Source of the DNA: Bacillota bacterium
Lineage (GTDB): Bacteria > Bacillota > Limnochordia > Darwinibacteriales > Darwinibacteriaceae
Length of the DNA stretch: 33,383 nucleotides
Direction: 5' to 3'
Assembly: GCA_012521335.1 (NCBI GenBank)
Contig: JAAYMM010000040.1
Coordinates: forward strand, 1 to 33,383
In this document: in pieces, positions 2 through 11,881 of the stretch
How positions within the stretch are numbered: position 1 is the first letter of the stretch
How the letters are laid out: the number at the start of each line of letters is the position of its first letter
Position numbers and translations under genes: made by a program
The notes under the pieces: generated by a model
The model's input: only the letters and a program-made list of their open reading frames with translations
Told to the model about the DNA's origin: nothing
The model's database searches: none

Positions 2-919
2 ATGCTAGATCAGCCTCGGGTGCTTACAACTATGGTGCAGGACCATGAGGAAGGCCTGATGGTCCGCGATATTGTCTGCGGCCGTTTGGGGCTAACCCGC
101 GGCCTGCTGCGGCGTATGAAACAAGGGGGCGGCGTTTTCCTCAATGGCCAACGGGACTATCTAACTAGAAGGGTGCGCGCTGGCGATCAGATCCAGATCG
201 TCTTTTTTGATGAAAAGACGGAGCTGGAGCCGCAAGAACTGCCGCTGGACATCGTGTTTGAAGATGAGTATCTGCTGGTTGTGAACAAGGCCGCGGGCAT
301 GGCCGTGCATCCTACGGGGACGTACCAGCAGGGAACCCTGGCCAACGCCATCGCCCACTACTGGCAGGTGATTGGGCTGGAAACGAAGGTGCGCCTGGTC
401 CATCGCTTGGACAAGGACACTTCTGGGCTGCTTTTGGTGGCCAAAGAACCGTATACGCTCCACCAGCTCCTCAAGCAGCTGGGCCGCCGGGAGTTGGTCC
501 GGGAGTATCTGGCTGTCGTGCACGGGCGGTTGGAAGAGCTGCAGGGAGTGATCGCGGTGCCCATTGCCAGGGCCGCCGATCACGGGGTCAAGCGCACAGC
601 CGATCCGGCGGGCAAGGAGGCCAAGACTGTGTACCGTGTCCTCAAGCGGACGCAGGGAGCGAGCTTGGTGCGGGCCCGGTTGGAGAGCGGCCGCACCCAT
701 CAGATCAGGGTGCATTTCGCCCATCTAGGCCATCCGGTTGTGGGCGATCCCCTCTACAGCCAGGCAGTACCCGAACTGGCCGGCCAGGCGCTGCACTCGT
801 GGCGGCTGGAGTTTGTCCATCCTCGCACAGGACGGCAACACGTGATCACCTGCCCTCTGCCGCAGGAGATGCTGTCCGTCTGGAAAAGGTTTCGGGAAGG
901 AGAAGAGGCATGCAGGTGA
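2..919 (+). CDS. RluA/RluD-family 23S rRNA pseudouridine synthase
   Basis: This protein isomerises specific uridines in RNA to pseudouridine, most likely in 23S rRNA. The N-terminal ~75 residues look like an S4 RNA-binding domain (LTRGLLRRMKQGGGVFLNG). The catalytic domain follows, with the family motif HRLDKDTSGLLL; the catalytic aspartate is D137. RTHQIRVHFAHLGHPVVGDPLY is the conserved C-terminal family motif, seen here as RTHQIRVH and GHPVVGDPLY. At 305 aa it has the usual RluD length, so the ATG at base 2 is plausible, but the ribosome site lies outside the window and a start further upstream cannot be excluded. The stop overlaps the start of the next gene by 10 bases, so the two are probably co-translated. 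The exact RNA target cannot be read from sequence. Confidence 0.93.
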   Translation: MLDQPRVLTTMVQDHEEGLMVRDIVCGRLGLTRGLLRRMKQGGGVFLNGQRDYLTRRVRAGDQIQIVFFDEKTELEPQELPLDIVFEDEYLLVVNKAAGMAVHPTGTYQQGTLANAIAHYWQVIGLETKVRLVHRLDKDTSGLLLVAKEPYTLHQLLKQLGRRELVREYLAVVHGRLEELQGVIAVPIARAADHGVKRTADPAGKEAKTVYRVLKRTQGASLVRARLESGRTHQIRVHFAHLGHPVVGDPLYSQAVPELAGQALHSWRLEFVHPRTGRQHVITCPLPQEMLSVWKRFREGEEACR

Positions 920-1335
920 CGGGGAAGATGGTTCGAAAGGGGGCTAAAGCCGGGCTGGAAGCCACGTGGGAGCTGGCCAAAGTGGTGGTGCCCACGGCCG
1001 TGGTGGTGGCTGTCTTTCGCGCCAGCGGGATGCTGGACAGCATCACGGGGTTTTTCGCCCCGTACATGAGCTGGTTTGGCATGTCGGGCGAAGCGGCTCT
1101 GGTTCTGTTCAGCGGGTATCTGATCAACCTGTACGCCGCGGTAGGCAGTATCATGGCCTTGACCTTGAGTCTGAAGGATATTACCATCTGCGCGGTGATG
1201 CTCACTTTCTGCCATTCGCTGCTGGTAGAACTGCCCATCAGCAAGAAAGCAGGCAGCCCGCTCAGCTACATTTTCTTTGTTCGTCTCGGCTGTTCTCTGC
1301 TGGTAGGCTGGATCTTGGGGGTGGTGCTGCCGTGA
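910..1335 (+). CDS. Nucleoside-recognition (Gate) domain membrane protein, first of a pair
   Basis: An integral membrane protein of 141 aa with about four hydrophobic segments, resembling one half of the nucleoside-recognition/Gate domain proteins (SpmA/SpmB-like family). ATG 910 is chosen because GGAAGGAG lies about 8 bases upstream; it overlaps the rluA-type gene by 10 bases. Conserved-looking features are the glycine-rich SGYLINLYAAVGSIMAL segment and the CHSLLVELPI stretch in a membrane helix. The next gene starts inside its stop codon (GTGA) and encodes the matching second half, so the two probably form a heteromeric channel or transporter. Substrate unknown. The family name is historical and does not prove nucleoside transport. 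Confidence 0.75.
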   Translation: MQVTGKMVRKGAKAGLEATWELAKVVVPTAVVVAVFRASGMLDSITGFFAPYMSWFGMSGEAALVLFSGYLINLYAAVGSIMALTLSLKDITICAVMLTFCHSLLVELPISKKAGSPLSYIFFVRLGCSLLVGWILGVVLP

Positions 1336-1784
1336 ATGTGCTTTGGGAAGGGTTTCTGCGGGGAATCAGCGGCGTGTTGCAGATTGCGGCCATAGTAATC
1401 CCTTTAATGATCGTGCTGGAAATAGCTGAAGGAAACGGCTGGCTGAAAAAGGTCAACCGCTATGTGGCTAAGCCCTTTCGGGGCATTGGGGTAAGCGAGG
1501 AAGGGGTCTTTCCCCTGGTGGTGGCCATCGTCTTCGGCATAACTTACGGCTCCGGGCTGATCATCAACCACGTGCGCAGCGGTCAGGTCAGCGCGCACGA
1601 GGCTAAGATCATCGGCACTTTTATGGCCATTGCCCACGCCTTGGTTGAAGACACGATTCTGTTCATGGTGGTAGGTGCTCCGCTCTGGCTGCTGCTCCTG
1701 CCCAGGCTGGTCTTAGCTTTTCTGGCCTCGTACATCGTGCATAGGCGCGGCTCGGCAGCCCTAGGGCAAGGGAACGACTCCTAA
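1332..1784 (+). CDS. Nucleoside-recognition (Gate) domain membrane protein, second of a pair
   Basis: A 150-aa membrane protein translated from GTG 1332, whose codon overlaps the preceding stop in a GTGA arrangement, a sign of translational coupling. It has several transmembrane stretches and the typical Gate-domain pattern FGITYGSGLII near residues 68-78, followed by an AHALVEDT motif in which the H and E/D residues are usual for the family. It is the partner of the upstream gene. The last 24 bases overlap the 3' end of the convergent secreted-protein gene, and no terminator separates them. Function is inferred from family only: export or uptake of a small molecule is possible. Confidence 0.75.
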   Translation: MNVLWEGFLRGISGVLQIAAIVIPLMIVLEIAEGNGWLKKVNRYVAKPFRGIGVSEEGVFPLVVAIVFGITYGSGLIINHVRSGQVSAHEAKIIGTFMAIAHALVEDTILFMVVGAPLWLLLLPRLVLAFLASYIVHRRGSAALGQGNDS

Positions 1785-3080
1785 CCCTTTTAAGAGCCAG
1801 TGATACTGGCCCGGGGTCAGCTCGAACTGCAGGAGCAGCTGGTCGCCCTGGCCTGAAGACACGCGCACCGTGATGCTGAAGGGTTCCAGGGTGATCTGTT
1901 CTAGTGCCCAGGCCGTGCTGGTATCCATGGTGAGCAGGAAATCCACCACGTCACTGCGCTTCTGTCTGAGATCAGGGGCGAAGAGCGTCTCCAACCTAGT
2001 GAGGTCGCCAGTACGGAGTGCTGTCTGCAGATCTCCCAGGAAGCTGGCGCAGGAGGCCGCGATCTCCGGGGGAACCTCGGGAGCCGCGGGTGTGAGGCGG
2101 AAGTAAGTCAGCTGCAGAGCCCCGCCGCCATCCTCCCAGATCATGGCCGCGGTGTAGCGCCCCCCGCGTTCGGTGGAGAGCAGAACGTGATAGGTACCGC
2201 CTGGGCTGGAGGGCACCTCTACAATCTGACTGGACACAGTGCCGTAATAGCTGGGGAGGCTGGCCAGATACTGAGCCAGCCCTTTTTCCTGCAGGGCCGG
2301 GCTCAGCAGCTCGCTCAACTCCTCCACGTCGCGCAGGTTGAGGGCGCGGGTGAACCTGTTGATCTGGATTTGGATGCGGGCGGAGGTTTCACTCTGCCTG
2401 CCACCTGGCAGCTCGTCCTCGTTCTCCCCTCGAGGCTCAACTGCGGGCTCATCGGGCAGGTCAACTCCTCCAACCTCGGCCAGTTCCACCGCGTCAACAA
2501 CGTCTTCCAAGACGTCCTCCACAACTTCCTCAGCAGTTTCTTCCGGTTGTTCCGCCAGGGGCGGAGCCGTGTTCACAAGAACAATAGCAGGGGGAAGAGC
2601 TGTCGGCGGGAGTTCAACCAGCTGGAAGGATCCCTGCACCCGTACCTGCTGCACCTCTTCGGAGATGACTTCCCAGTGTATAGGCAGCTGCAGCGTTACG
2701 GGCACTTCCTGAACCGGCACCGAAAACTCAGGGAGCCAAAGGGCATGCGGGTCCAACACCGCCTGCTCCAACCGCTGCTCCACCAGACCCTCGTAGGAGA
2801 AGGTGACCTGCTGCGGCCGAACTTCACGTACTGTGAAAACCACGGCAGTACTGTCGGGGTAGCGCTGCACGCTGTACTCTACCAGGTCATCGGCCCAGAA
2901 CTCGGTGAGGTGGGCAGCGGGGAAGATGAGGAAAGCGAGCGATGCCGCTTCAGGTTCCACAACGACCTCTCCAGAAACACGCAGAAAACCGGTTTCCGGC
3001 AGATAAAAGACCTCGACTGCGGCTTCCGCTGTTCCCCAGAGGAGCAAGAGTAAGAGTAAACCCAACAACCCTTTCTTCAT
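1761..3080 (-). CDS. Secreted protein with acidic linker and two NTF2-like-sized repeats, function unknown
   Basis: I do not recognise this 439-aa protein. ATG 3080 is chosen over an upstream ATG at 3128 because GGGAGG sits about 7 bases before it and it begins a clear signal peptide (MKKGLLGLLLLLLLWGTAEA). The mature part starts with a beta-rich region (~20-180) that loosely recalls the N-terminal beta domain of M1 peptidases (the stretch FSYEGLVEQ), without any zinc motif. A Glu/Asp-rich linker follows (~175-225), then two similar-sized alpha/beta units (~230-330 and ~335-439). Each begins with a helix of the type RFTRALNLRDVEELSELLSP or FLGDLQTALRTGDLTRLETLF, the usual opening of SnoaL/NTF2-like domains. 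It is probably exported and anchored or periplasm-like in location. It overlaps the convergent Gate gene by 24 bases at the 3' end. Confidence 0.7.
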   Translation of the reverse strand: MKKGLLGLLLLLLLWGTAEAAVEVFYLPETGFLRVSGEVVVEPEAASLAFLIFPAAHLTEFWADDLVEYSVQRYPDSTAVVFTVREVRPQQVTFSYEGLVEQRLEQAVLDPHALWLPEFSVPVQEVPVTLQLPIHWEVISEEVQQVRVQGSFQLVELPPTALPPAIVLVNTAPPLAEQPEETAEEVVEDVLEDVVDAVELAEVGGVDLPDEPAVEPRGENEDELPGGRQSETSARIQIQINRFTRALNLRDVEELSELLSPALQEKGLAQYLASLPSYYGTVSSQIVEVPSSPGGTYHVLLSTERGGRYTAAMIWEDGGGALQLTYFRLTPAAPEVPPEIAASCASFLGDLQTALRTGDLTRLETLFAPDLRQKRSDVVDFLLTMDTSTAWALEQITLEPFSITVRVSSGQGDQLLLQFELTPGQYHWLLKGLGVVPLP

Positions 3081-3127
3081 CCTACCGCCTCCCAACTGGC
3101 TTACCTTGTAGTGTTTAATCTTTGGCA

Positions 3128-3156
3128 TTGAAATCCCTGCCTAGAGTTGGTATAAT
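3128..3156 (+). promoter_or_regulatory. Sigma-A promoter of the aminotransferase-reductase gene
   Basis: TTGAAA at 3128-3133 and TATAAT at 3151-3156 are separated by 17 bases, close to the ideal housekeeping promoter. Transcription would start near 3163, giving a leader of about 40 bases with GGGAGG at 3190-3195 before ATG 3203. Confidence 0.85.
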
Positions 3157-3202
3157 TAACACTGTGCACAAAGTGTGCTCAATACTCTAGGGAGGTTCTA
3201 GG

Positions 3203-5818
3203 ATGCATCCATACATAGAATTTGTCAATCCGCATCTGGGAAAACTGCTCACCGATATCGGTCTGGATAAGCGTTTTCAGCGGGGACAAGGCGCTTACCT
3301 CTATGACCATACTGGGGAGAAGTACCTGGACTGCATTGCTGCTTACGGAGCTCTACCTTTCGGCTACAATCCTCCCGAAATCTGGCAGGCCCTGCACGAC
3401 CTGGAGGCCCGGCAGGAGCCGAGTTTCATCCAGCCTTCGCTGCTGGAAGCTGCTGGGCAGTTGGCAGCCCGCCTGATTCAAGTAGCGCCGGCGGGGATGC
3501 AGTACGTAACCTTTGCTAACAGCGGAGCCGAAGCTGTTGAGGCCTCCTTCAAGCTGGCCCGGGCCAGAACTGGCAGGCCTGTGATTCTTTCCACCAAAAA
3601 CAGCTTTCACGGCAAGACCCTGGGTGCCCTCTCGGCCACCGGGAATGAAGGGTATCAGAAGGCCTTCGGCGCACCTGTGCCCGGCTTCCGCCATATACCC
3701 TACGGTGATATCGCCGCCCTAGAGAAGTACCTGGAAGACCATGCCCATGACACCGCAGCCTTCATTGTGGAGCCCATTCAAGGCGAAGGCGGCATAGTGG
3801 AGCCTCCAGCGGGTTATCTGCAGCAGGTCCAGGAGCTGTGCGCCGAGTTCGGAGTGCTCACCATCTTTGACGAGATCCAATCTGGCTTAGGACGCACCGG
3901 TGCTCTCTTTGCCTGCGCCGAAGAAGGCGTAACTCCCGACATTATGGTGTTGGCTAAAGCTCTGGGGGGCGGTTTGATCCCCATCGGCGCGGTGCTGTGC
4001 ACTGCCGACGCATACACCGAGGAGTTCGGCCTCAAACACTCCTCCACGTTCGCTGGGAATTCCCTCGGGGCCAGAGCTGGCCTCGCTGTACTGGACCTGT
4101 TGACCAGAGACAATGGCGCACTCCTGCACTCTGTGCGCGTCAAGGGAGCTAAGTTGAAAGCCGGTCTGGAGGAAGTGGCCCGGAAATACCCGCAGGTGGT
4201 GAAGGCCATCCGCGGGCGCGGGTTCATGCTGGGCATCGAGTTTGTGAACTCCAAAGACCCCTACCCCCACAGCTTGCTTGGGGTCATGGCTGAACAGGAG
4301 ATGCTCACTCCCATGGTCGCCTCCTATCTCTTGAACGTGGAAAAGGTGCGGGTGGCGCCCACCTTGAACGGAGCTAGCGTCATCCGTATTGAGCCGCCCT
4401 TGATTATCGGGGAAGCCGAGATTGAACGGGTAGTGGAGGCGGTGGAACGGGCAGTGCACCTCTTGGCCTGCCGCAATACGGCCGCCTTCTTGGGGCATCT
4501 GGTTGGCTACAGCCGTCCCGATCTGGCCAGCTCTGCTCCAGAGCCGGCGGAGGCACACCGCGTGGAGCCCCAGCCAGAAGATGGCCGTTTCGCTTTCCTG
4601 GTCCACCCTGTTGATCTGGGCAATTATACCGACTTCGATGCCAGCCTGGCGGCCTTGACCGATGATCAGCTGGAAGATTTAAGCTCGCGCTGGAATGATC
4701 TTGTGGAACCCTTCGTGGTCAGCAGCACTCGCATCGTGGATGCCCTTGGCCGCAGTGCCTATGGTGATTTTATCTGCGTGCCCAAAACAGCTGCCCAGCT
4801 TCTGGCCATGGATAAACGGGAAGCCATCGAGCAGATCATGGCCGCCGTTGACCTGGCCGCCCGGCGAGGAGCGGAGATCGTGGGGCTGGGCGCCTACACT
4901 TCGGTAGTCACCATGGGAGGCAGGCAGCTGCTGCCGTACACCCCGGTGGCTCTGACTACAGGCAACAGCTACACAGTTGTTTCGGGCGTAGAGGCTGCGG
5001 TCACCGCCGCTGAGGAAGTGGGCATGACGCTCAGCTGTGTAACGGGGGCGGTGGTGGGAGCCGGTGGAGCTATTGGCAAGGCCCTCTCACTCCTCCTGGC
5101 CGAGCAGGTGCAGCGTCTGATACTGGTGGGCAATCCCGCCCGCCCGGACAAAAGTGAATACCGCATGCTCAAAGTGGCCGTGGAGATCATCAAGCACCTG
5201 CGCGACCTGCACCAAGCCGGGCGCCGTTTTGCCCCGGGCAGCCTGGGCCACTTCGCTGCTCAGCTCAGCGACGTGCCATCTGACGACGCATCTTTGGGCG
5301 TGTGGGTTGAGTATGTGCGCAGCGTGCTCGCTTCCGATGCACCGTTAACCATCACCGTGGACAGCCGGGCATACCTGCCCCATGCCGATCTGATCATGGT
5401 CGCGACCAGCAGTTTGGATACCCTGATCACCCCGGAGGTGCTCAAACAGGGGGCGGTGGTGTGCGATATGTCCAGACCGGGGAATGTGAGTGAACGGGTG
5501 CTGCAGGAGCGTCCCGATGTACTGGTGATTGACGGCGGGGTGATCGCTCTGCCTAACAGCCCCGATTTGGGCTGGAACTTCGGCTTTGAAAAGGGCACAG
5601 CCTTCGCCTGCATGTCTGAGACCATGATGCTGGCGTTGGAAAGACGCTATGAGCACACCAGCATTGGAGCGGACCTAAGCCTGGAGCACCTGGAACTGAT
5701 GCGCAGTTTGGCGGCCAAACTAGGTTTTTCTCTGGCCGGATTCCGGGCTTTCGATCGGCCGTTGGATCCGCAAGTTTGGGAACGCGTGCGCTCCTTGCGG
5801 AAGGAAGCGACAGCCTGA
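3203..5818 (+). CDS. Bifunctional class III aminotransferase / acyl-thioester (AAR-like) reductase fusion
   Basis: An 871-aa two-domain enzyme. Residues 1 to ~425 are a fold-type I class III aminotransferase: the PLP phosphate loop (NSGAEAVEAS), SFHGKTLGALSATGN, EPIQGEGGI, FDEIQSGLGRTG and the Schiff-base lysine K252 in LAKALGGG. After a ~35-residue linker, residues ~465-871 resemble cyanobacterial long-chain acyl-ACP reductase. They carry GLGAYTSVV, TTGNSYT, the dinucleotide loop VVGAGGAIGKAL and FACMSETMMLALE, whose C803 matches the catalytic cysteine of that family. The inferred chemistry is acyl-ACP or acyl-CoA to aldehyde by the C-terminal half, then transamination to an amine by the N-terminal half. 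An amino-acid-derived substrate is also possible. It has its own sigma-A promoter and terminator and so is a single-gene unit. Start ATG 3203 has GGGAGG 7 bases upstream. Confidence 0.85.
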   Translation: MHPYIEFVNPHLGKLLTDIGLDKRFQRGQGAYLYDHTGEKYLDCIAAYGALPFGYNPPEIWQALHDLEARQEPSFIQPSLLEAAGQLAARLIQVAPAGMQYVTFANSGAEAVEASFKLARARTGRPVILSTKNSFHGKTLGALSATGNEGYQKAFGAPVPGFRHIPYGDIAALEKYLEDHAHDTAAFIVEPIQGEGGIVEPPAGYLQQVQELCAEFGVLTIFDEIQSGLGRTGALFACAEEGVTPDIMVLAKALGGGLIPIGAVLCTADAYTEEFGLKHSSTFAGNSLGARAGLAVLDLLTRDNGALLHSVRVKGAKLKAGLEEVARKYPQVVKAIRGRGFMLGIEFVNSKDPYPHSLLGVMAEQEMLTPMVASYLLNVEKVRVAPTLNGASVIRIEPPLIIGEAEIERVVEAVERAVHLLACRNTAAFLGHLVGYSRPDLASSAPEPAEAHRVEPQPEDGRFAFLVHPVDLGNYTDFDASLAALTDDQLEDLSSRWNDLVEPFVVSSTRIVDALGRSAYGDFICVPKTAAQLLAMDKREAIEQIMAAVDLAARRGAEIVGLGAYTSVVTMGGRQLLPYTPVALTTGNSYTVVSGVEAAVTAAEEVGMTLSCVTGAVVGAGGAIGKALSLLLAEQVQRLILVGNPARPDKSEYRMLKVAVEIIKHLRDLHQAGRRFAPGSLGHFAAQLSDVPSDDASLGVWVEYVRSVLASDAPLTITVDSRAYLPHADLIMVATSSLDTLITPEVLKQGAVVCDMSRPGNVSERVLQERPDVLVIDGGVIALPNSPDLGWNFGFEKGTAFACMSETMMLALERRYEHTSIGADLSLEHLELMRSLAAKLGFSLAGFRAFDRPLDPQVWERVRSLRKEATA

Positions 5819-5837: not shown

Positions 5838-5862
5838 AAGCCGGGAGCCAGCCCGGCTTTTT
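5838..5862 (+). terminator. Intrinsic terminator after the fusion enzyme
   Basis: AAGCCGGG (5838-5845) pairs with CCCGGCTT (5852-5859) around a 6-base loop, followed by a short T-run (5858-5862). It separates the fusion gene from the DegT-type aminotransferase. Confidence 0.75.
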
Positions 5863-5929
5863 GCCGTGAACAGGAATTCAACTAGGCCTCGAGAAGAACT
5901 ACAAGATAGTATGGATGGGAGTGATCAGC

Positions 5930-7189
5930 GTGGAGAAGCTGGCGATCCACGGGGGTACGCCTGTGCGGACCAAACCGTGGGTGTCCAAATATATGGGGAG
6001 CGAAGAGTTGGGCGCCGAAGAAAAGGCGCGGGTGCTTAACGTTCTGGAGAAAAAGCGCATTTTCCGCTACCTGCCAGACGGGCTGGAAACATCTGAAGCC
6101 AGTGCTCTGGAAGAGGAGTATAAAAGCTTTTTGGGTACCAAATATGCCTTGGCCGTCAACTCGGGTACTTCTGCCTTAATCTGCGCCTTGGTGGCCGCTG
6201 GGGTAGGTCCGGGTCACGAGGTGATCATCCCAGCTTACACTTGGGTGGCCACGGCGGCGGCGGTAGCCATCGTGGGCGCAGTACCCGTCCTAGCGGAGGT
6301 CGACTCCAGTTTGACCTTGGATCCTCAGGATTTCGCTGCCAAAATCACGCCCCGTACCAAAGCCGTGATTGCTGTGCACATGCGGGGGATCTCGGCAGCC
6401 ATGGATGAAATTCTGGCCGCGGCCCGTCAACACAACATCATGGTAATCGAGGATGTGGCCCAGGCCAACGGAGGAACGTACCAGGGGCGCCTGCTTGGAT
6501 CCCTTGGGCATGTGGGCTGCTTCAGCCTGCAGCAGTCCAAAGTGATTGCCGCGGGGGAAGGAGGAATGCTGGTTACCGATTCCGAAGAGTTGTGGCAGCG
6601 GGCGGTATTATATCACGATGGGGCAGGCTATCAGTTCCGTTTTGTTGAGCGGAAAATTCCTGCCTTTCCCGGCCAGAACTACCGCTTAACGGAACTACAG
6701 GCTGCACTGTCCCTGGGTCAGCTGGAAAAAATGCCGGCTATTCTGCGCGTGACACGCGCCAATAAGCGCAAGCTGGTGGAGCGCCTGCGCCGGCAGCCGA
6801 AGATCGAGCTTTCCCCTGTCTTTGGGAGTGAGCGGGATTTAGGCGTCAGTTTGATCTTCTACGTGGAGAACGAAGCCAAGGCGCGCCAGACGGCCCAGGC
6901 GCTCACCGCGGAGGGGATACCTGCCTTCCAAGTTTACGACAATCAGGCCAACGACCAGCATATTTACATCAACTGGGAGTTCCTCCTGAACAAGCGCGAC
7001 CCCTGGGGCGGGCACTTCCCCTGGAGTCTGGCGGAAGGGAGCACTGTGGAGTATTCAGCGGACACCTGTCCGCAGACCCTGGAGCTTCTGGGCCGGGCGG
7101 TGCAGGTTCATCTCAATCATCTTGTGACCGACGAAGACCTGCAGGATATCGAGGCGGCTGTGAACAAGGTTGCCTACCACCTGCTGTAG
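5930..7189 (+). CDS. DegT/DnrJ/EryC1/StrS-family PLP-dependent aminotransferase
   Basis: A 419-aa fold-type I PLP enzyme of the sugar-aminotransferase/dehydratase superfamily. GTG 5930 is preferred over ATG 5915 because GGGAGTGA at 5917-5924 is placed correctly for it, and the resulting N terminus, EKLAIHGGTPVRT, is the usual family start. Motifs seen: NSGTSALICAL (PLP phosphate contact), PAYTWVATAAAV, IEDVAQANGG (the aspartate pairs with the pyridine nitrogen) and SLQQSKVIAAGEGGM with the Schiff-base lysine. The substrate is not clear. Members make amino-sugars or act in AHBA-like pathways, but no nucleotide-sugar genes lie nearby. dapF follows after 16 bases, so the two are probably in one operon. 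Confidence 0.85.
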   Translation: MEKLAIHGGTPVRTKPWVSKYMGSEELGAEEKARVLNVLEKKRIFRYLPDGLETSEASALEEEYKSFLGTKYALAVNSGTSALICALVAAGVGPGHEVIIPAYTWVATAAAVAIVGAVPVLAEVDSSLTLDPQDFAAKITPRTKAVIAVHMRGISAAMDEILAAARQHNIMVIEDVAQANGGTYQGRLLGSLGHVGCFSLQQSKVIAAGEGGMLVTDSEELWQRAVLYHDGAGYQFRFVERKIPAFPGQNYRLTELQAALSLGQLEKMPAILRVTRANKRKLVERLRRQPKIELSPVFGSERDLGVSLIFYVENEAKARQTAQALTAEGIPAFQVYDNQANDQHIYINWEFLLNKRDPWGGHFPWSLAEGSTVEYSADTCPQTLELLGRAVQVHLNHLVTDEDLQDIEAAVNKVAYHLL

Positions 7190-7205
7190 TGGGGAGGGAG
7201 CGTGG

Positions 7206-8021
7206 GTGGAACACGCGTTTACCAAGTATCACGGATTGGGTAACGACTTCATTTTTTTGGAGGACTTGGAAGGAAATCTGCTGCCCCAGGGCGAACAGCT
7301 TGCAAGATTGCTCTGTGACCGGCACTTTGGCATTGGGGCAGACGGCCTGGTTCTCATAATCCGCGGCGAGGACCGGTTTACCATGCGCATTTTCAATGCC
7401 GATGGTTCCGAGGCGGAAATGTGCGGCAATGCGGTGCGCTGTATGGCGGACTACCTGCTGCGCCAAGGCCTGGCAGAAGGCCCTGTGCTTCAGATCAGCA
7501 CTTTGGCTGGGGTGAAAGTAATTCAGGCTGCAGACGGCCTGTACAGGGTGGATATGGGCGAGCCCGACTTCTCTTCGCACGGAGGAGGGCCGCTGCGCCT
7601 GACCGCCTCTGGGCAGGAGTGGCTGTGCCACCCCGTATCCATGGGCAATCCCCACGCGGTAGTTTTTGTTGATGAAGTGGACGCGGTGAACCTGGCCATG
7701 TGGGGGCCCACCTTGGAGAACCATCCGGTATGGCCCCAGAAGGCAAACATTGAGTTTGTGCAGGTGCTGAGCAGGAACAGAATCAAGGTACGGGTCTGGG
7801 AGAGGGGAGCTGGCCCCACATTGGCCTGCGGTACAGGGGCGTGCGCAGCCGCGGTCACATCTACCCGCCTGGGTTTGACTGAGAGCCCGGTGCAGGTAGA
7901 GCTCCCAGGAGGGGGGCTCACCATCGAGTGGAAGATGGGCAGTCACGTCTTTATGTCCGGACCTGCCACGCGGGTTTTTTCCGGTACAGTAGATTTAGAA
8001 GCATTAAGAAGCGGGAGATGA
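7206..8021 (+). CDS. dapF: Diaminopimelate epimerase
   Basis: Converts LL- to meso-diaminopimelate for lysine and peptidoglycan synthesis in the cytoplasm. The two catalytic cysteines of this PLP-independent racemase are present: C73 in MCGNAVRC and C208 in ACGTGACAAAV. The N-terminal KYHGLGNDFIF is diagnostic. GTG 7206 is chosen because GGGGAGGG (7191-7198) lies 7 bases upstream. The 271-aa length is normal. The stop codon overlaps the start of the phosphodiesterase gene, which suggests coupling. Confidence 0.96.
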   Translation: MEHAFTKYHGLGNDFIFLEDLEGNLLPQGEQLARLLCDRHFGIGADGLVLIIRGEDRFTMRIFNADGSEAEMCGNAVRCMADYLLRQGLAEGPVLQISTLAGVKVIQAADGLYRVDMGEPDFSSHGGGPLRLTASGQEWLCHPVSMGNPHAVVFVDEVDAVNLAMWGPTLENHPVWPQKANIEFVQVLSRNRIKVRVWERGAGPTLACGTGACAAAVTSTRLGLTESPVQVELPGGGLTIEWKMGSHVFMSGPATRVFSGTVDLEALRSGR

Positions 8022-8808: not shown

Positions 8809-9810
8809 TTAGACCACGCCTTCCAGATCCGCTTCGGCAACCGCCAGGACCAGGTCCACACAGGCTTGGACATCCCTAAGGTCCACCATTTCAGACGGGG
8901 AGTGGACATAGCGGGTGGGGATGGAGATGGTCCCTGAGGGAACACCTTCTTTGGTCAGATGAATGGCCCCCGCATCCGTGCCGCCCCATTCCAGCACTTC
9001 CATCTGGTATGGGATGTTCTTAGCCTCGCACAGCCCCACCAAAAGGTCTTTGACGCGGGGATGGGCGATGTGGGATGCGTCCTTGACCTTGATCGCGGCT
9101 CCCTGGCCTAGGGATACGGCCATGCGCTTAGCCTCGGGCGTATCCCCGGTGAGGGTTACATCCAGGGCCAGGCCCAGATCCGGATCTAGGCCATAGGCGG
9201 CGGTGCGTGCTCCGCGCAGGCCCACTTCCTCTTGGGTGGTGAAGACACAGTAGAGGGTGTTTCTTGGCCGGTCCAGTTTCCGCAGGGCTTCCACCAGTAC
9301 GGCGCAGCCGATGCGGTCATCCATGCTTTTGGCAATTAAGCGGTCGCCCAGATCGGTAAACTCGCGATGGAATACGCCGAACTGGCCCACCTGAACCTTC
9401 TGCACAGCTTCCTCTCGGCTGGCAGCACCGATATCGATGAACAGTTTGTCCAGCGTGAGCTCTTTCCACTCGGCCTTTCCTTCCTGGTAGACCACGCCGA
9501 TGGTGCCATTGGCAAAACGGACGCGATTGCCCACCAGGGTACTGATGCCTACGCCTCCGATGGGGGCAAAGCGCAGGAAACCATGGTCGTCGATATACGT
9601 GATCACAACACCGATCTCGTCGGTGTGGGCGGCGAACATGATCCTTTTCCCTTCGGCAGAGCCATGCTTGACGGCGACGAGGTTGCCTAGAACGTCGGTG
9701 CGCAGTTCATCAACATGATCCTTGATCAGATCCTTGATAAGTCCCGTCACTTCCGTTTCATAGCCAGAGGGCCCGCAGGCCTCGGTCAACTGTCTGATGA
9801 TCGCTTTCAA
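8809..9810 (-). CDS. M42-family aminopeptidase (third gene of the operon)
   Basis: A 333-aa dinuclear-metal aminopeptidase of the PepA/FrvX/YsdC type, which form large dodecameric tetrahedral particles that trim peptides in the cytoplasm. The ligand and catalytic residues are all visible: AHTDEIG (His), SMDDRIGCAV (bridging Asp), TTQEEVGLRGA (catalytic Glu and metal Glu), LALDVTLTG (Asp) and RYVHSPSEMV (His). The start is TTG at 9810, whose codon overlaps the upstream gene's stop as TTGA. Last gene of a three-gene operon of related but clearly diverged paralogues, ending at the shared terminator. Confidence 0.93.
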   Translation of the reverse strand: MKAIIRQLTEACGPSGYETEVTGLIKDLIKDHVDELRTDVLGNLVAVKHGSAEGKRIMFAAHTDEIGVVITYIDDHGFLRFAPIGGVGISTLVGNRVRFANGTIGVVYQEGKAEWKELTLDKLFIDIGAASREEAVQKVQVGQFGVFHREFTDLGDRLIAKSMDDRIGCAVLVEALRKLDRPRNTLYCVFTTQEEVGLRGARTAAYGLDPDLGLALDVTLTGDTPEAKRMAVSLGQGAAIKVKDASHIAHPRVKDLLVGLCEAKNIPYQMEVLEWGGTDAGAIHLTKEGVPSGTISIPTRYVHSPSEMVDLRDVQACVDLVLAVAEADLEGVV

Positions 9811-10832
9811 CTCAATCCCGCCCTTTCTTCAAGCCGTGCTAGATAGTGTCTAACGAGCTGGTATGCTCCCTCAAAATCATCTTTGCACATGATGGCAGCT
9901 GGTGAGTGGATGTAGCGGCAGGGCACGGAGATCACCGCCACTTTTACCCCGGCCTTGGAAAGCTGAATCTGACCGGCATCCGTGCCGCCTGCAGTGCTCC
10001 GGCGCACCTGCACCGGGATGCCCTTTTCCGCGGCCAAGGCCAACAGCTCCTGCACCAGCTGAGGATGGGGTATTACTGAGCGGTCCATCACCGTTATGGC
10101 TGGTCCCTGCCCCAATGCGGTAGCCTGTTTATGTTCATCTGTCCCCGGTACATCGGAGGCAGTGGTACCTTCCAATACGAGGGCTATATCGGGCTCAATC
10201 TGATAGGCAGCCACTCCTGCACCCCGCAGGCCCACCTCTTCCTGCACCGTAAAGGCGGCGATCAGGGGGAAGGAGACTTTTTCCTGGAGCAGGCGGATGG
10301 CCAGGGCGCAGCCCACACGATCATCCAGGGCTTTGGCCTTCACTTTGTTGGCCCCCAGCTCCTCGTAGGCGGTGGTGAAATAGGCGATCTCGCCCAGCTT
10401 GACCAGTTTTTCCGCCTCTTCTTTGCTCTTAGCTCCGATATCAATCACCATCTCCTGCACCGTAAAGGCCTTTTCCCGTTCCTCTGGCCTCTGCAGGTGG
10501 ATGGGTTTACTGCCGATGACGCCCAGGGTTTTCTTGCTGCCAACCACTACGGATTTGGCCACCAAAACCCGGGGATCTACACCACCGATGGGGCGGAACT
10601 TGAGATAGCCGTCTTTGTCGATGCCCACGATCATCAAGGCCACTTCATCCATGTGGGCAGCGATCATCACCTTCGGGCCTGGCGCATCAGGGTTCTTGAT
10701 CGCCAACAGGTTGCCCAGAGCATCGGTCTTCACCACGTGGGCATGGGGCTCAACTTCGCTGCGGATTAGGTCGCGCACTTCACGTTCCTGGCCGGGCGCG
10801 CCGTTGGCTTGGGTTAAACGGGCTAGAAGCAT
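9807..10832 (-). CDS. M42-family aminopeptidase (second gene of the operon)
   Basis: A 341-aa M42 peptidase with AHMDEVALM, KALDDRVGCAL, TVQEEVGLRGAG and CRYIHSPAA. At the position where its neighbours have an Asp ligand it has Glu (LVLEGTTASDVPG), a common variation that may alter metal or substrate preference. ATG 10832 overlaps the preceding gene by 10 bases, and its own stop overlaps the next start by 4, so translation is coupled through the operon. The three paralogues could form homo- or hetero-oligomeric particles with different residue specificities. That is inference. Confidence 0.93.
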   Translation of the reverse strand: MLLARLTQANGAPGQEREVRDLIRSEVEPHAHVVKTDALGNLLAIKNPDAPGPKVMIAAHMDEVALMIVGIDKDGYLKFRPIGGVDPRVLVAKSVVVGSKKTLGVIGSKPIHLQRPEEREKAFTVQEMVIDIGAKSKEEAEKLVKLGEIAYFTTAYEELGANKVKAKALDDRVGCALAIRLLQEKVSFPLIAAFTVQEEVGLRGAGVAAYQIEPDIALVLEGTTASDVPGTDEHKQATALGQGPAITVMDRSVIPHPQLVQELLALAAEKGIPVQVRRSTAGGTDAGQIQLSKAGVKVAVISVPCRYIHSPAAIMCKDDFEGAYQLVRHYLARLEERAGLS

Positions 10833-11881
10833 GTCAATCCCTCCACAAATTCATGATCGAGGCCCGCGATGAACATGGCCATCAAGCGCCCAGTGCGCTG
10901 GATATCCTGGTAGTCGAGGGTTTCCACGGGGGTGTGCATGTAGCGCAGGGGGATGGACAGCAGTATGGTGGCTACACCAGCCCTGGCCACCTGAATGGCG
11001 TAGGCATCTGTTCCTCCTGGATAGGGGGAAGGATCTAGGGAATAGCTGATGTTCCACTCCTTAGCCGTCTCCACCATCCTGGCGTGCAGCTTGGGATGCA
11101 CATGGGGCCCGATGGCGATGCCCGGCCCGTGCGACACTTTAATCGTGTCTGTCTCCGGCAGGCCGGGGGAATCTCCAAAGCCCACGTCAATGGCAATACC
11201 GATATCGGGGATGATTCCATAGGTGCTGGTAATGGCACCCCTTAAGCCCACCTCTTCCTGCACGGTGGCCACTCCGTATACGTCTGCCTGGTGGGTGATG
11301 GTGGAGAGCGTCTTGAAGCACTCCAAGATGGCGGCTACACCCGCCCGATCATCAAAGGCCTTGCCCGCCAGGAGCGAGCCCTGCAGGTCCACAACGCTGC
11401 GTTTGATGGTAACCAGGTCGCCCACCCGCACAGATCGTTCTGCTTCTTCGGCGCTGTCGAAACCGGCATCGATGAACAGATCCTCCATCTTCACCGCTTT
11501 ACTCTGCTCGCCCGGAGCCTGGATGTGGGGAGGCTTCGCGCCGATGATGCCCGGGAGAGCTCCCTGCCTGCCGTGCACCACCACTTCCTGGGCCAGCAGC
11601 ACCCGCTGGTCAAAACCGCCAATGGTGCTGAAGCGCAGGAACCCTTCTTTTTCGATTTTCGTGATGACCAAGCCGATTTCGTCCATGTGGGCGGCTAGCA
11701 TAACCTTGGGCCTGGGCTCGGGCCCTTGGCCTTTTTTGAGCATGATCAGGTTGCCCAGTTTATCAGTGCGCACTTCGTCGGCCCAAGGGCAGCTCTGCTG
11801 GATCAGCTTCGCCAGCTCAAGCTCGTATCCTGATATCCCCGAGGCCTCGCTCAAAGTGCGGAAGACTTGCTTGACATCCAC
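10823..11881 (-). CDS. M42-family aminopeptidase (first gene of the operon)
   Basis: A 352-aa M42 peptidase and the promoter-proximal gene of the operon. Seen motifs: AAHMDEIGLV, KAFDDRAGVAA, TVQEEVGLRGAI, IAIDVGFGDSPG and LRYMHTPVETL, covering all metal ligands and the catalytic glutamate. The start is GTG 11881, with GGAGGG about 7 bases upstream on the minus strand. No convincing sigma-A promoter could be assigned in the 106 bases between this start and the divergent DUF123 gene. Confidence 0.93.
   Translation of the reverse strand: MDVKQVFRTLSEASGISGYELELAKLIQQSCPWADEVRTDKLGNLIMLKKGQGPEPRPKVMLAAHMDEIGLVITKIEKEGFLRFSTIGGFDQRVLLAQEVVVHGRQGALPGIIGAKPPHIQAPGEQSKAVKMEDLFIDAGFDSAEEAERSVRVGDLVTIKRSVVDLQGSLLAGKAFDDRAGVAAILECFKTLSTITHQADVYGVATVQEEVGLRGAITSTYGIIPDIGIAIDVGFGDSPGLPETDTIKVSHGPGIAIGPHVHPKLHARMVETAKEWNISYSLDPSPYPGGTDAYAIQVARAGVATILLSIPLRYMHTPVETLDYQDIQRTGRLMAMFIAGLDHEFVEGLTCF

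Follow-up and report, generated by a model that had tools for sequence, protein, structure and literature searches.

Among the described enzymes closest to the one considered here, PtTamH uses NADH to reduce C12-ACP to an aldehyde, which it then aminates to the C12 amine (PMC9594044), KecF carries its aminotransferase ahead of its reductase (PMC6498172), and PP_2782 and three fusion proteins from Bacillota, Tmar_2123, ThesuDRAFT_00745 and Tfer_2018, have been cloned and their transaminase activity measured (PMC10829540). The Bacillota proteins aminate aliphatic aldehydes with glutamate and, in vitro, also take aldehydes that are small or aromatic; they were the subject of transaminase assays only, their role, regulation and distribution not being worked out in that study (PMC10829540). 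In PigE from Serratia (PDB code 4ppm), for which thioester reduction and transamination have been proposed, the reductase is described as a homologue of acyl-ACP reductase, AAR (PMC8341465).

We analysed 33,383 nucleotides of a contig of a Bacillota bacterium of the class Limnochordia (JAAYMM010000040.1, positions 1-33,383; hereafter the window). A sequence-only reading had proposed that a single protein encoded at 3203-5818 unites an aminotransferase (TA) with an AAR-like thioester reductase (TR), and this was confirmed by the following features.

3203..5818, + strand: TA-TR fusion gene, a single open frame with an ATG start encoding 871 amino acids
3203..4477, + strand: class III aminotransferase domain of the YgjG/PigE subfamily, residues 1-425 (profile and structure matches, TA tree)
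4478..4579, + strand: inter-domain linker, residues 426-459, containing a low-confidence loop in the model (pLDDT around 55 at residues 441-450)
4580..5815, + strand: AAR-like thioester reductase domain, residues 460-871 (profile, PDB, alignment and reductase tree)

Pfam family PF00202 matches residues 26-418 with an E value of 2.5e-91 and 306.8 bits, to be compared with a gathering cut-off of 30.5. The nearest solved structures to the TA half are the aminotransferase half of PigE and YgjG; the structure search made with the whole fusion effectively covered this half only. The reductase half matches NCBIfam TIGR04058 (acyl-ACP reductase; E 1.3e-21) with 77.3 bits, below the equivalog cut-off of 449.7, and its PDB sequence matches are PigE 4ppm (E 8e-27, over 4ppm residues 2-350) and the S. 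elongatus AAR 6jzq (E 3.8e-15). The PigE family NF053554, in which the domain order is reversed, matches from positions 1-193 on with 556.9 bits against a cut-off of 850. The GxxGxxG loop and the catalytic Cys with xxE of the AAR-like (COG5322-type) superfamily are present, as is the TamH-type arrangement, a single chain with the transaminase at its N terminus and the AAR-like reductase at its C terminus. Judged from these matches, the reductase half is homologous to the cyanobacterial AAR without being its orthologue, and the possibility that it belongs to an unrelated dehydrogenase family is refuted. Nor is the fusion an assembly artefact, since most of 41 related genomes have the same open reading frame at full length, and so do dozens of independent contigs from Bacillota, some of which carry the name Limnochordia.

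This kind of enzyme is already known, since PtTamH, KecF/PP_2782 and the three Bacillota proteins share its domain order, and the suggestion that it was undescribed has to be abandoned. PtTamH likewise comprises a class III transaminase followed by an AAR-like reductase, with the same catalytic lysine and cysteine, but is a proteobacterial protein of 941 amino acids from a tambjamine cluster with a dedicated carrier, TamA, and has no reported partner equivalent to d5 or c5 (see below). KecF/PP_2782 of Pseudomonas share the order and the proposed two-step chemistry (PMC6498172, PMC10829540), but belong to a koreenceine-type polyketide cluster. Tfer_2018, Tmar_2123 and ThesuDRAFT_00745, compared by description, have the same order and AAR-domain cysteine and come from the same phylum in the broad sense. 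The AAR of S. elongatus (PDB codes 6jzq and 6jzy) shares fold and catalytic cysteine with the C-terminal half; unlike the fusion, it is a stand-alone, NADPH-dependent enzyme of the alkane pathway with no aminotransferase. In PigE both domains are homologous to those of the fusion, but their order is reversed, an Arg follows Rossmann strand 2 in PigE-type proteins, and there is no helical insert. The contrast with PigE drawn from sequence was thus right as to the reductase coming first and wrong in placing that reductase in a different family, given the 4ppm match and its published description (PMC8341465).

Phylogenetic trees place the TA-TR fusions of Bacillota and Proteobacteria together, apart from the stand-alone reductases of Bacillota and Armatimonadota; SH-aLRT support from quick searches, with some rows long-branched, is 98 in the TA tree and 93 in the reductase tree. 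A longer protein of 1395 residues is encoded on a Leisingera plasmid (L201:7959-12146), where TA and reductase are followed by around 500 further C-terminal residues; nearby genes encode adenylating and MMPL transporter proteins, and this is probably a specialised-metabolite version.

Active-site residues and a predicted cofactor switch

The residues expected to support the two activities, and a variable position in the reductase, map as follows.

3956..3958, + strand: codon of K252, the PLP-binding lysine (invariant; homology to YgjG/PigE)
5057..5077, + strand: dinucleotide-binding loop GAGGAIG, residues 619-625 (alignments)
5132..5134, + strand: codon of N644, at the end of Rossmann strand 2 (predicted NADPH-to-NADH switch)
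5138..5332, + strand: region with a mostly helical insert of around 50 residues, residues 646-710 (model and alignments)
5609..5611, + strand: codon of the catalytic C803, equivalent to AAR C294 and TamH C887 (alignments)

Both active sites are complete, as had been claimed: K252, D223 (the DEIQ-type aspartate), G619, G622, G625, C803 and E806 do not vary among 20 aligned sequences. Loss of the cysteine in homologues, which would have told against the assignment, is not seen, C803 and E806 being kept in all 134 reductase rows compared, whether fused, stand-alone or PigE-type.

The position of residue 644 varies with domain organisation. It is occupied by Asn in 66/66 Bacillota fusions and in four of the five proteobacterial ones. 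Arg takes its place in 21 of 24 rows for stand-alone reductases of Bacillota (the other three are truncated or frameshifted fusions), in 35/36 stand-alone reductases of Armatimonadota, in the PigE-type rows and in the S. elongatus AAR. An Arg in this position usually recognises the 2'-phosphate of NADPH, and the Bacillota fusions, having Asn, are therefore predicted from the alignment to use NADH, as TamH does; the documented use of NADH by PtTamH is consistent with the Asn at this position in the window protein. The helical insert is absent from stand-alone reductases and PigE and present in most fusions. It was considered as a mark of fusion and dropped, four fusion rows being without it.

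Distribution, operon context and partner proteins

The search for further fusions and their hosts, which the sequence-only reading had advised, covered 398 genomes drawn evenly from the phylum. TR is present in 241 of these and fused to TA in 55; unfused, it is mostly a protein of around 360-400 amino acids. Within the class the fusion is near-universal and single-copy. The description of the reductase as normally a stand-alone cyanobacterial alkane enzyme understates the range of such proteins, stand-alone AAR-like reductases being common both in this phylum and in Armatimonadota.

When the fused genomes are left out, a matching stand-alone TA (a match from the N-terminal VNP motif on, with E <= 1e-90) occurs in 123 of 186 TR-positive genomes, compared to 4 of 157 TR-negative ones; these are raw genome counts, uncorrected for shared ancestry. 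The genes beside stand-alone TAs offered as metabolic hints only lineage-specific neighbours, namely M16 peptidases, an AarF-like kinase and radical SAM/SPASM proteins, the last in four loci (L165:7897-9327, L163, L168 and L174). A class III TA that matches at its N terminus is present in 15 of 21 Armatimonadota genomes; its pocket motifs look YgjG/ArgD-like, however, and it was therefore not counted as the same partner.

The 63 of 186 genomes with TR and no detectable TA partner, together with the reversibility of aminotransferases and the catabolic role of YgjG, might indicate that the two activities work in the reverse direction or serve only as a source of aldehyde, with TA scavenging amines to aldehydes and the reductase regulating or oxidising. 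As AAR, PigE and TamH are all reductive, and neither the dinucleotide loop nor the cysteine that forms the thioester varies, we regard this as improbable and favour synthesis of an amine from an acyl thioester.

The stand-alone TR lies in an operon of conserved order, with variants, which reads coaX-dusB-d5-c5-TR-greA-lysS (gene names assigned by eye). In the genome from which the window comes the order is dusB-d5-c5-greA-lysS, so that TR is missing exactly between c5 and greA, and the fusion is located elsewhere. Several other genomes have the fusion directly behind c5 (L020, L030, L097, L196, G344, G381, G386 and G149), while in L189 it directly follows d5 and in L192 it neighbours the pair of M16 peptidase genes that adjoin the stand-alone TA in other loci.

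The d5 product is an XRE-type helix-turn-helix protein of around 180 amino acids with an HTH_3 domain. For c5, of around 300 amino acids, sequence searches of Pfam, NCBIfam and the PDB gave no significant match. c5 appears to be the family annotated as quinate 5-dehydrogenase. A family so annotated has been noted as present in Thermus and other bacteria (PMC9425974).

An AlphaFold2 model of c5 built from 26 sequences has a mean pLDDT of 90, and its nine best PDB entries are all AAR or carmabin TAD, with Z scores of 12.8-14.2 over around 250 residues at 4-5 Å (VIA-align). The top match reaches 14.2 over 249 residues at 4.4 Å; for comparison, the entry ranked next after these nine, a malic enzyme, scores 10.6. 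Identity to AAR in the structure alignment is around 10 percent and profile-profile comparison with the stand-alone TR yields an hhalign probability of 0.1 percent, detecting no homology at that level, so that the kinship of c5 with AAR is a matter of fold alone. A literature search on carmabin TAD returned no result. The model thus predicts that c5 has the AAR fold over its whole chain, without the catalytic cysteine: no Cys is invariant in c5 and, by eye, an invariant N263 falls at the place of C803 and E266 at that of E806.

c5 is found in 235 of the 241 TR-positive genomes. Linkage to TR and shared control suggest that it probably assists or regulates TR. The protein also persists (e.g. 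L100:7235-8146) in 55 of the 398 genomes, from 17 family codes, that lack TR, in none of which is a matching stand-alone TA found, and c5 would therefore have a role of its own as well.

Promoter, terminator and a putative shared operator

The fusion gene had been credited with its own promoter and terminator. This claim holds, given the near-consensus promoter and the hairpin with T run listed here; the output of the terminator scanner did not include the hairpin.

3128..3156, + strand: sigma-70-like promoter TTGAAA-N17-TATAAT with TG before the -10 (11/12 consensus matches; consensus match only)
3163..3181, unstranded: operator-like dyad TGTGCACA-AAG-TGTGCTCA, just downstream of the -10, with the same motif before the d5-c5 operon
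5838..5864, + strand: intrinsic terminator AAGCCGGG-N6-CCCGGCTT then a T run, with an 8-bp GC-rich hairpin

The recurrence of the dyad was assessed by scoring two TGTGCACA half-sites in palindromic arrangement, 3 or 4 bases apart, with at least 13/16 matches. Such sites lie upstream of 37 of 64 fusion-group genes, seven of the 64 being proteobacterial and all seven without one, and upstream of all 16 d5 genes; first-order shuffles gave expectations of 0.5 and 0.1, respectively. By the same scoring none was found upstream of dusB, coaX, lysS, greA or stand-alone TR. Among the 35 c5 genes, only that of L097 carries the site, and there c5 heads a c5-fusion operon. Around 13 Bacillota fusions have neither operator nor c5/d5 neighbour. 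The site also precedes two of 33 stand-alone TA genes, one of these being a truncated fusion, and this general lack of the operator indicates that TA and TR are not co-regulated in the genomes in which they are separate.

When no more than one mismatch is allowed, the form with 3-base spacing occurs at exactly two sites in the window genome, one before the fusion and one before d5; a reversed control pattern gave no matches there. Two weaker candidates with two mismatches each, one in C29 inside an ABC-transporter-like open reading frame and the other in C88, were rejected as being at chance level. In 29 other genomes the 4-base-spaced sites are mostly at d5; G139, which bears a fusion, has one site at d5-c5 and one before the fusion. 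The operator distribution thus indicates that the site goes with TR: there is one when TR lies inside the d5 operon, and a second when the fusion is set apart.

Like the domains, the conserved residues, the co-occurrence and the operon history, this distribution is read directly from the genomes. From it we infer that d5 binds the predicted operator and that the fusion is one half of a small regulon whose other half is the d5-c5 operon. The position of the site directly after the -10 box fits repression, and d5 probably represses both its own operon and the fusion through the common palindrome.

Substrate, product and place in metabolism

The genes immediately around the fusion provide no lipid context. 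Upstream, at 799-1784 (+), is a SpmA/SpmB-like spore maturation pair, recognised by eye and conserved in near relatives; that the organism is a spore-former, as had been supposed, agrees with a Spo0A match above its cut-off at 252 bits. The divergent gene at 1761-3128 (-) encodes a probably secreted protein with weak SnoaL/DUF4440-like matches, a neighbour that stands beside the fusion in 19 near loci and was not seen in other families. At 8809-11881 (-) three M42-like aminopeptidase paralogues, recognised by eye, follow one another in tandem and overlap end to end; near relatives conserve two or three of them as a group.

Following the fusion, at 5915-8021 (+), come a DegT/DnrJ/EryC1 aminotransferase and a DapF-like gene, and in six relatives (L010, L011, L013, L026, L029 and L034) a DapB-like gene comes after the fusion. 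This lysine/DAP-type cluster has no obvious link to the fusion. The presence of DegT-type, DapF-like and sometimes DapB-like genes in near relatives might nevertheless point to a short, branched or functionalised thioester (e.g. omega-amino or dicarboxylic) as substrate, with a diamine or small amine building block as product. The acceptance of small and aromatic aldehydes by Bacillota fusions in vitro (PMC10829540) would agree with this, as would the closeness of the TA to YgjG, a putrescine (diamine) aminotransferase not separated with strong support from the stand-alone TAs in the TA tree. However, the lysine-type neighbours are lineage-specific, absent in other families and divided from the fusion by the terminator, and the reductase falls in the group of long-chain acyl-ACP reductase and TamH. 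Furthermore, stand-alone and fused TAs have the pocket motifs of PigE, YG-x-hydrophobic-[NP]-[LF]-G-[HYF]-N and [NS]-hydrophobic-hydrophobic-Q, which are missing from YgjG and ArgD. We consider a substrate of this kind unlikely.

An ordinary fatty acyl-ACP is the likeliest substrate, because the only PF00550 (ACP) protein detected in the genome is encoded between plsX and rnc. The same observation bears on whether the fusion might be an enzyme of specialised metabolism in the manner of tambjamine, prodigiosin or koreenceine biosynthesis, in which a dedicated carrier delivers the chain, of polyketide or fatty origin, and the resulting amine cyclises or is condensed. Homologues with a known product do sit in such clusters (PMC9594044, PMC8341465, PMC6498172), and the Pseudoalteromonas and Methylocystis loci are of this kind, but around the fusion there is no PKS, NRPS or second carrier protein, and a gene that occurs once in nearly every member of the class, and widely in the phylum, is unlike a cluster gene. 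Of the readings weighed here, this appears to us the least credible.

We therefore prefer, as probable, the reading in which the protein is a didomain acyl-thioester-to-amine synthase, likely converting fatty acyl-ACP to a long-chain amine, within a d5-repressed regulon that includes c5. The conversion of acyl-ACP to amine is known from the work on TamH, and the transaminase activity from that on the Bacillota fusions. By analogy with TamH and AAR, the acyl chain would pass from the phosphopantetheine thioester to C803 of the AAR-like domain and be released as the aldehyde, presumably at the expense of NADH. The aldehyde would then be handed to the N-terminal PLP aminotransferase and converted to the primary amine, with glutamate the likely donor. 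The likeliest product would be a long-chain primary amine or a derivative of one.

A broader proposal is put forward with considerable reserve, as possible rather than expected: that d5, the AAR-fold pseudoenzyme c5, TR and a PigE-type TA, fused or separate, constitute a repressor-controlled fatty-aldehyde/fatty-amine pathway belonging to core metabolism across much of the phylum. Its product would be an undescribed amine with a long chain, or a lipid derived from such an amine, and the NADPH-to-NADH switch would mark the fused lineage. Literature searches yielded no relevant report of an acyl-ACP reductase or a long-chain amine from Bacillota and, as far as we have searched, the regulon, the cofactor switch, the assignment of c5 and the pairing of stand-alone partners are new.

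Earlier knowledge of such enzymes came from clusters for pigments and alkaloids and from biocatalysis. In many Bacillota the two activities appear instead as a conserved, single-copy and dedicatedly regulated part of ordinary metabolism. If the proposal is true, the labels 'quinate 5-dehydrogenase', 'predicted amino acid dehydrogenase' and 'putrescine aminotransferase' may be misnomers, and Bacillota with the pathway would make a fatty aldehyde or amine that nobody has sought. Cultured relatives offer a direct way of testing this, through the operator, the replacement of Arg by Asn and the partners that occur separately.
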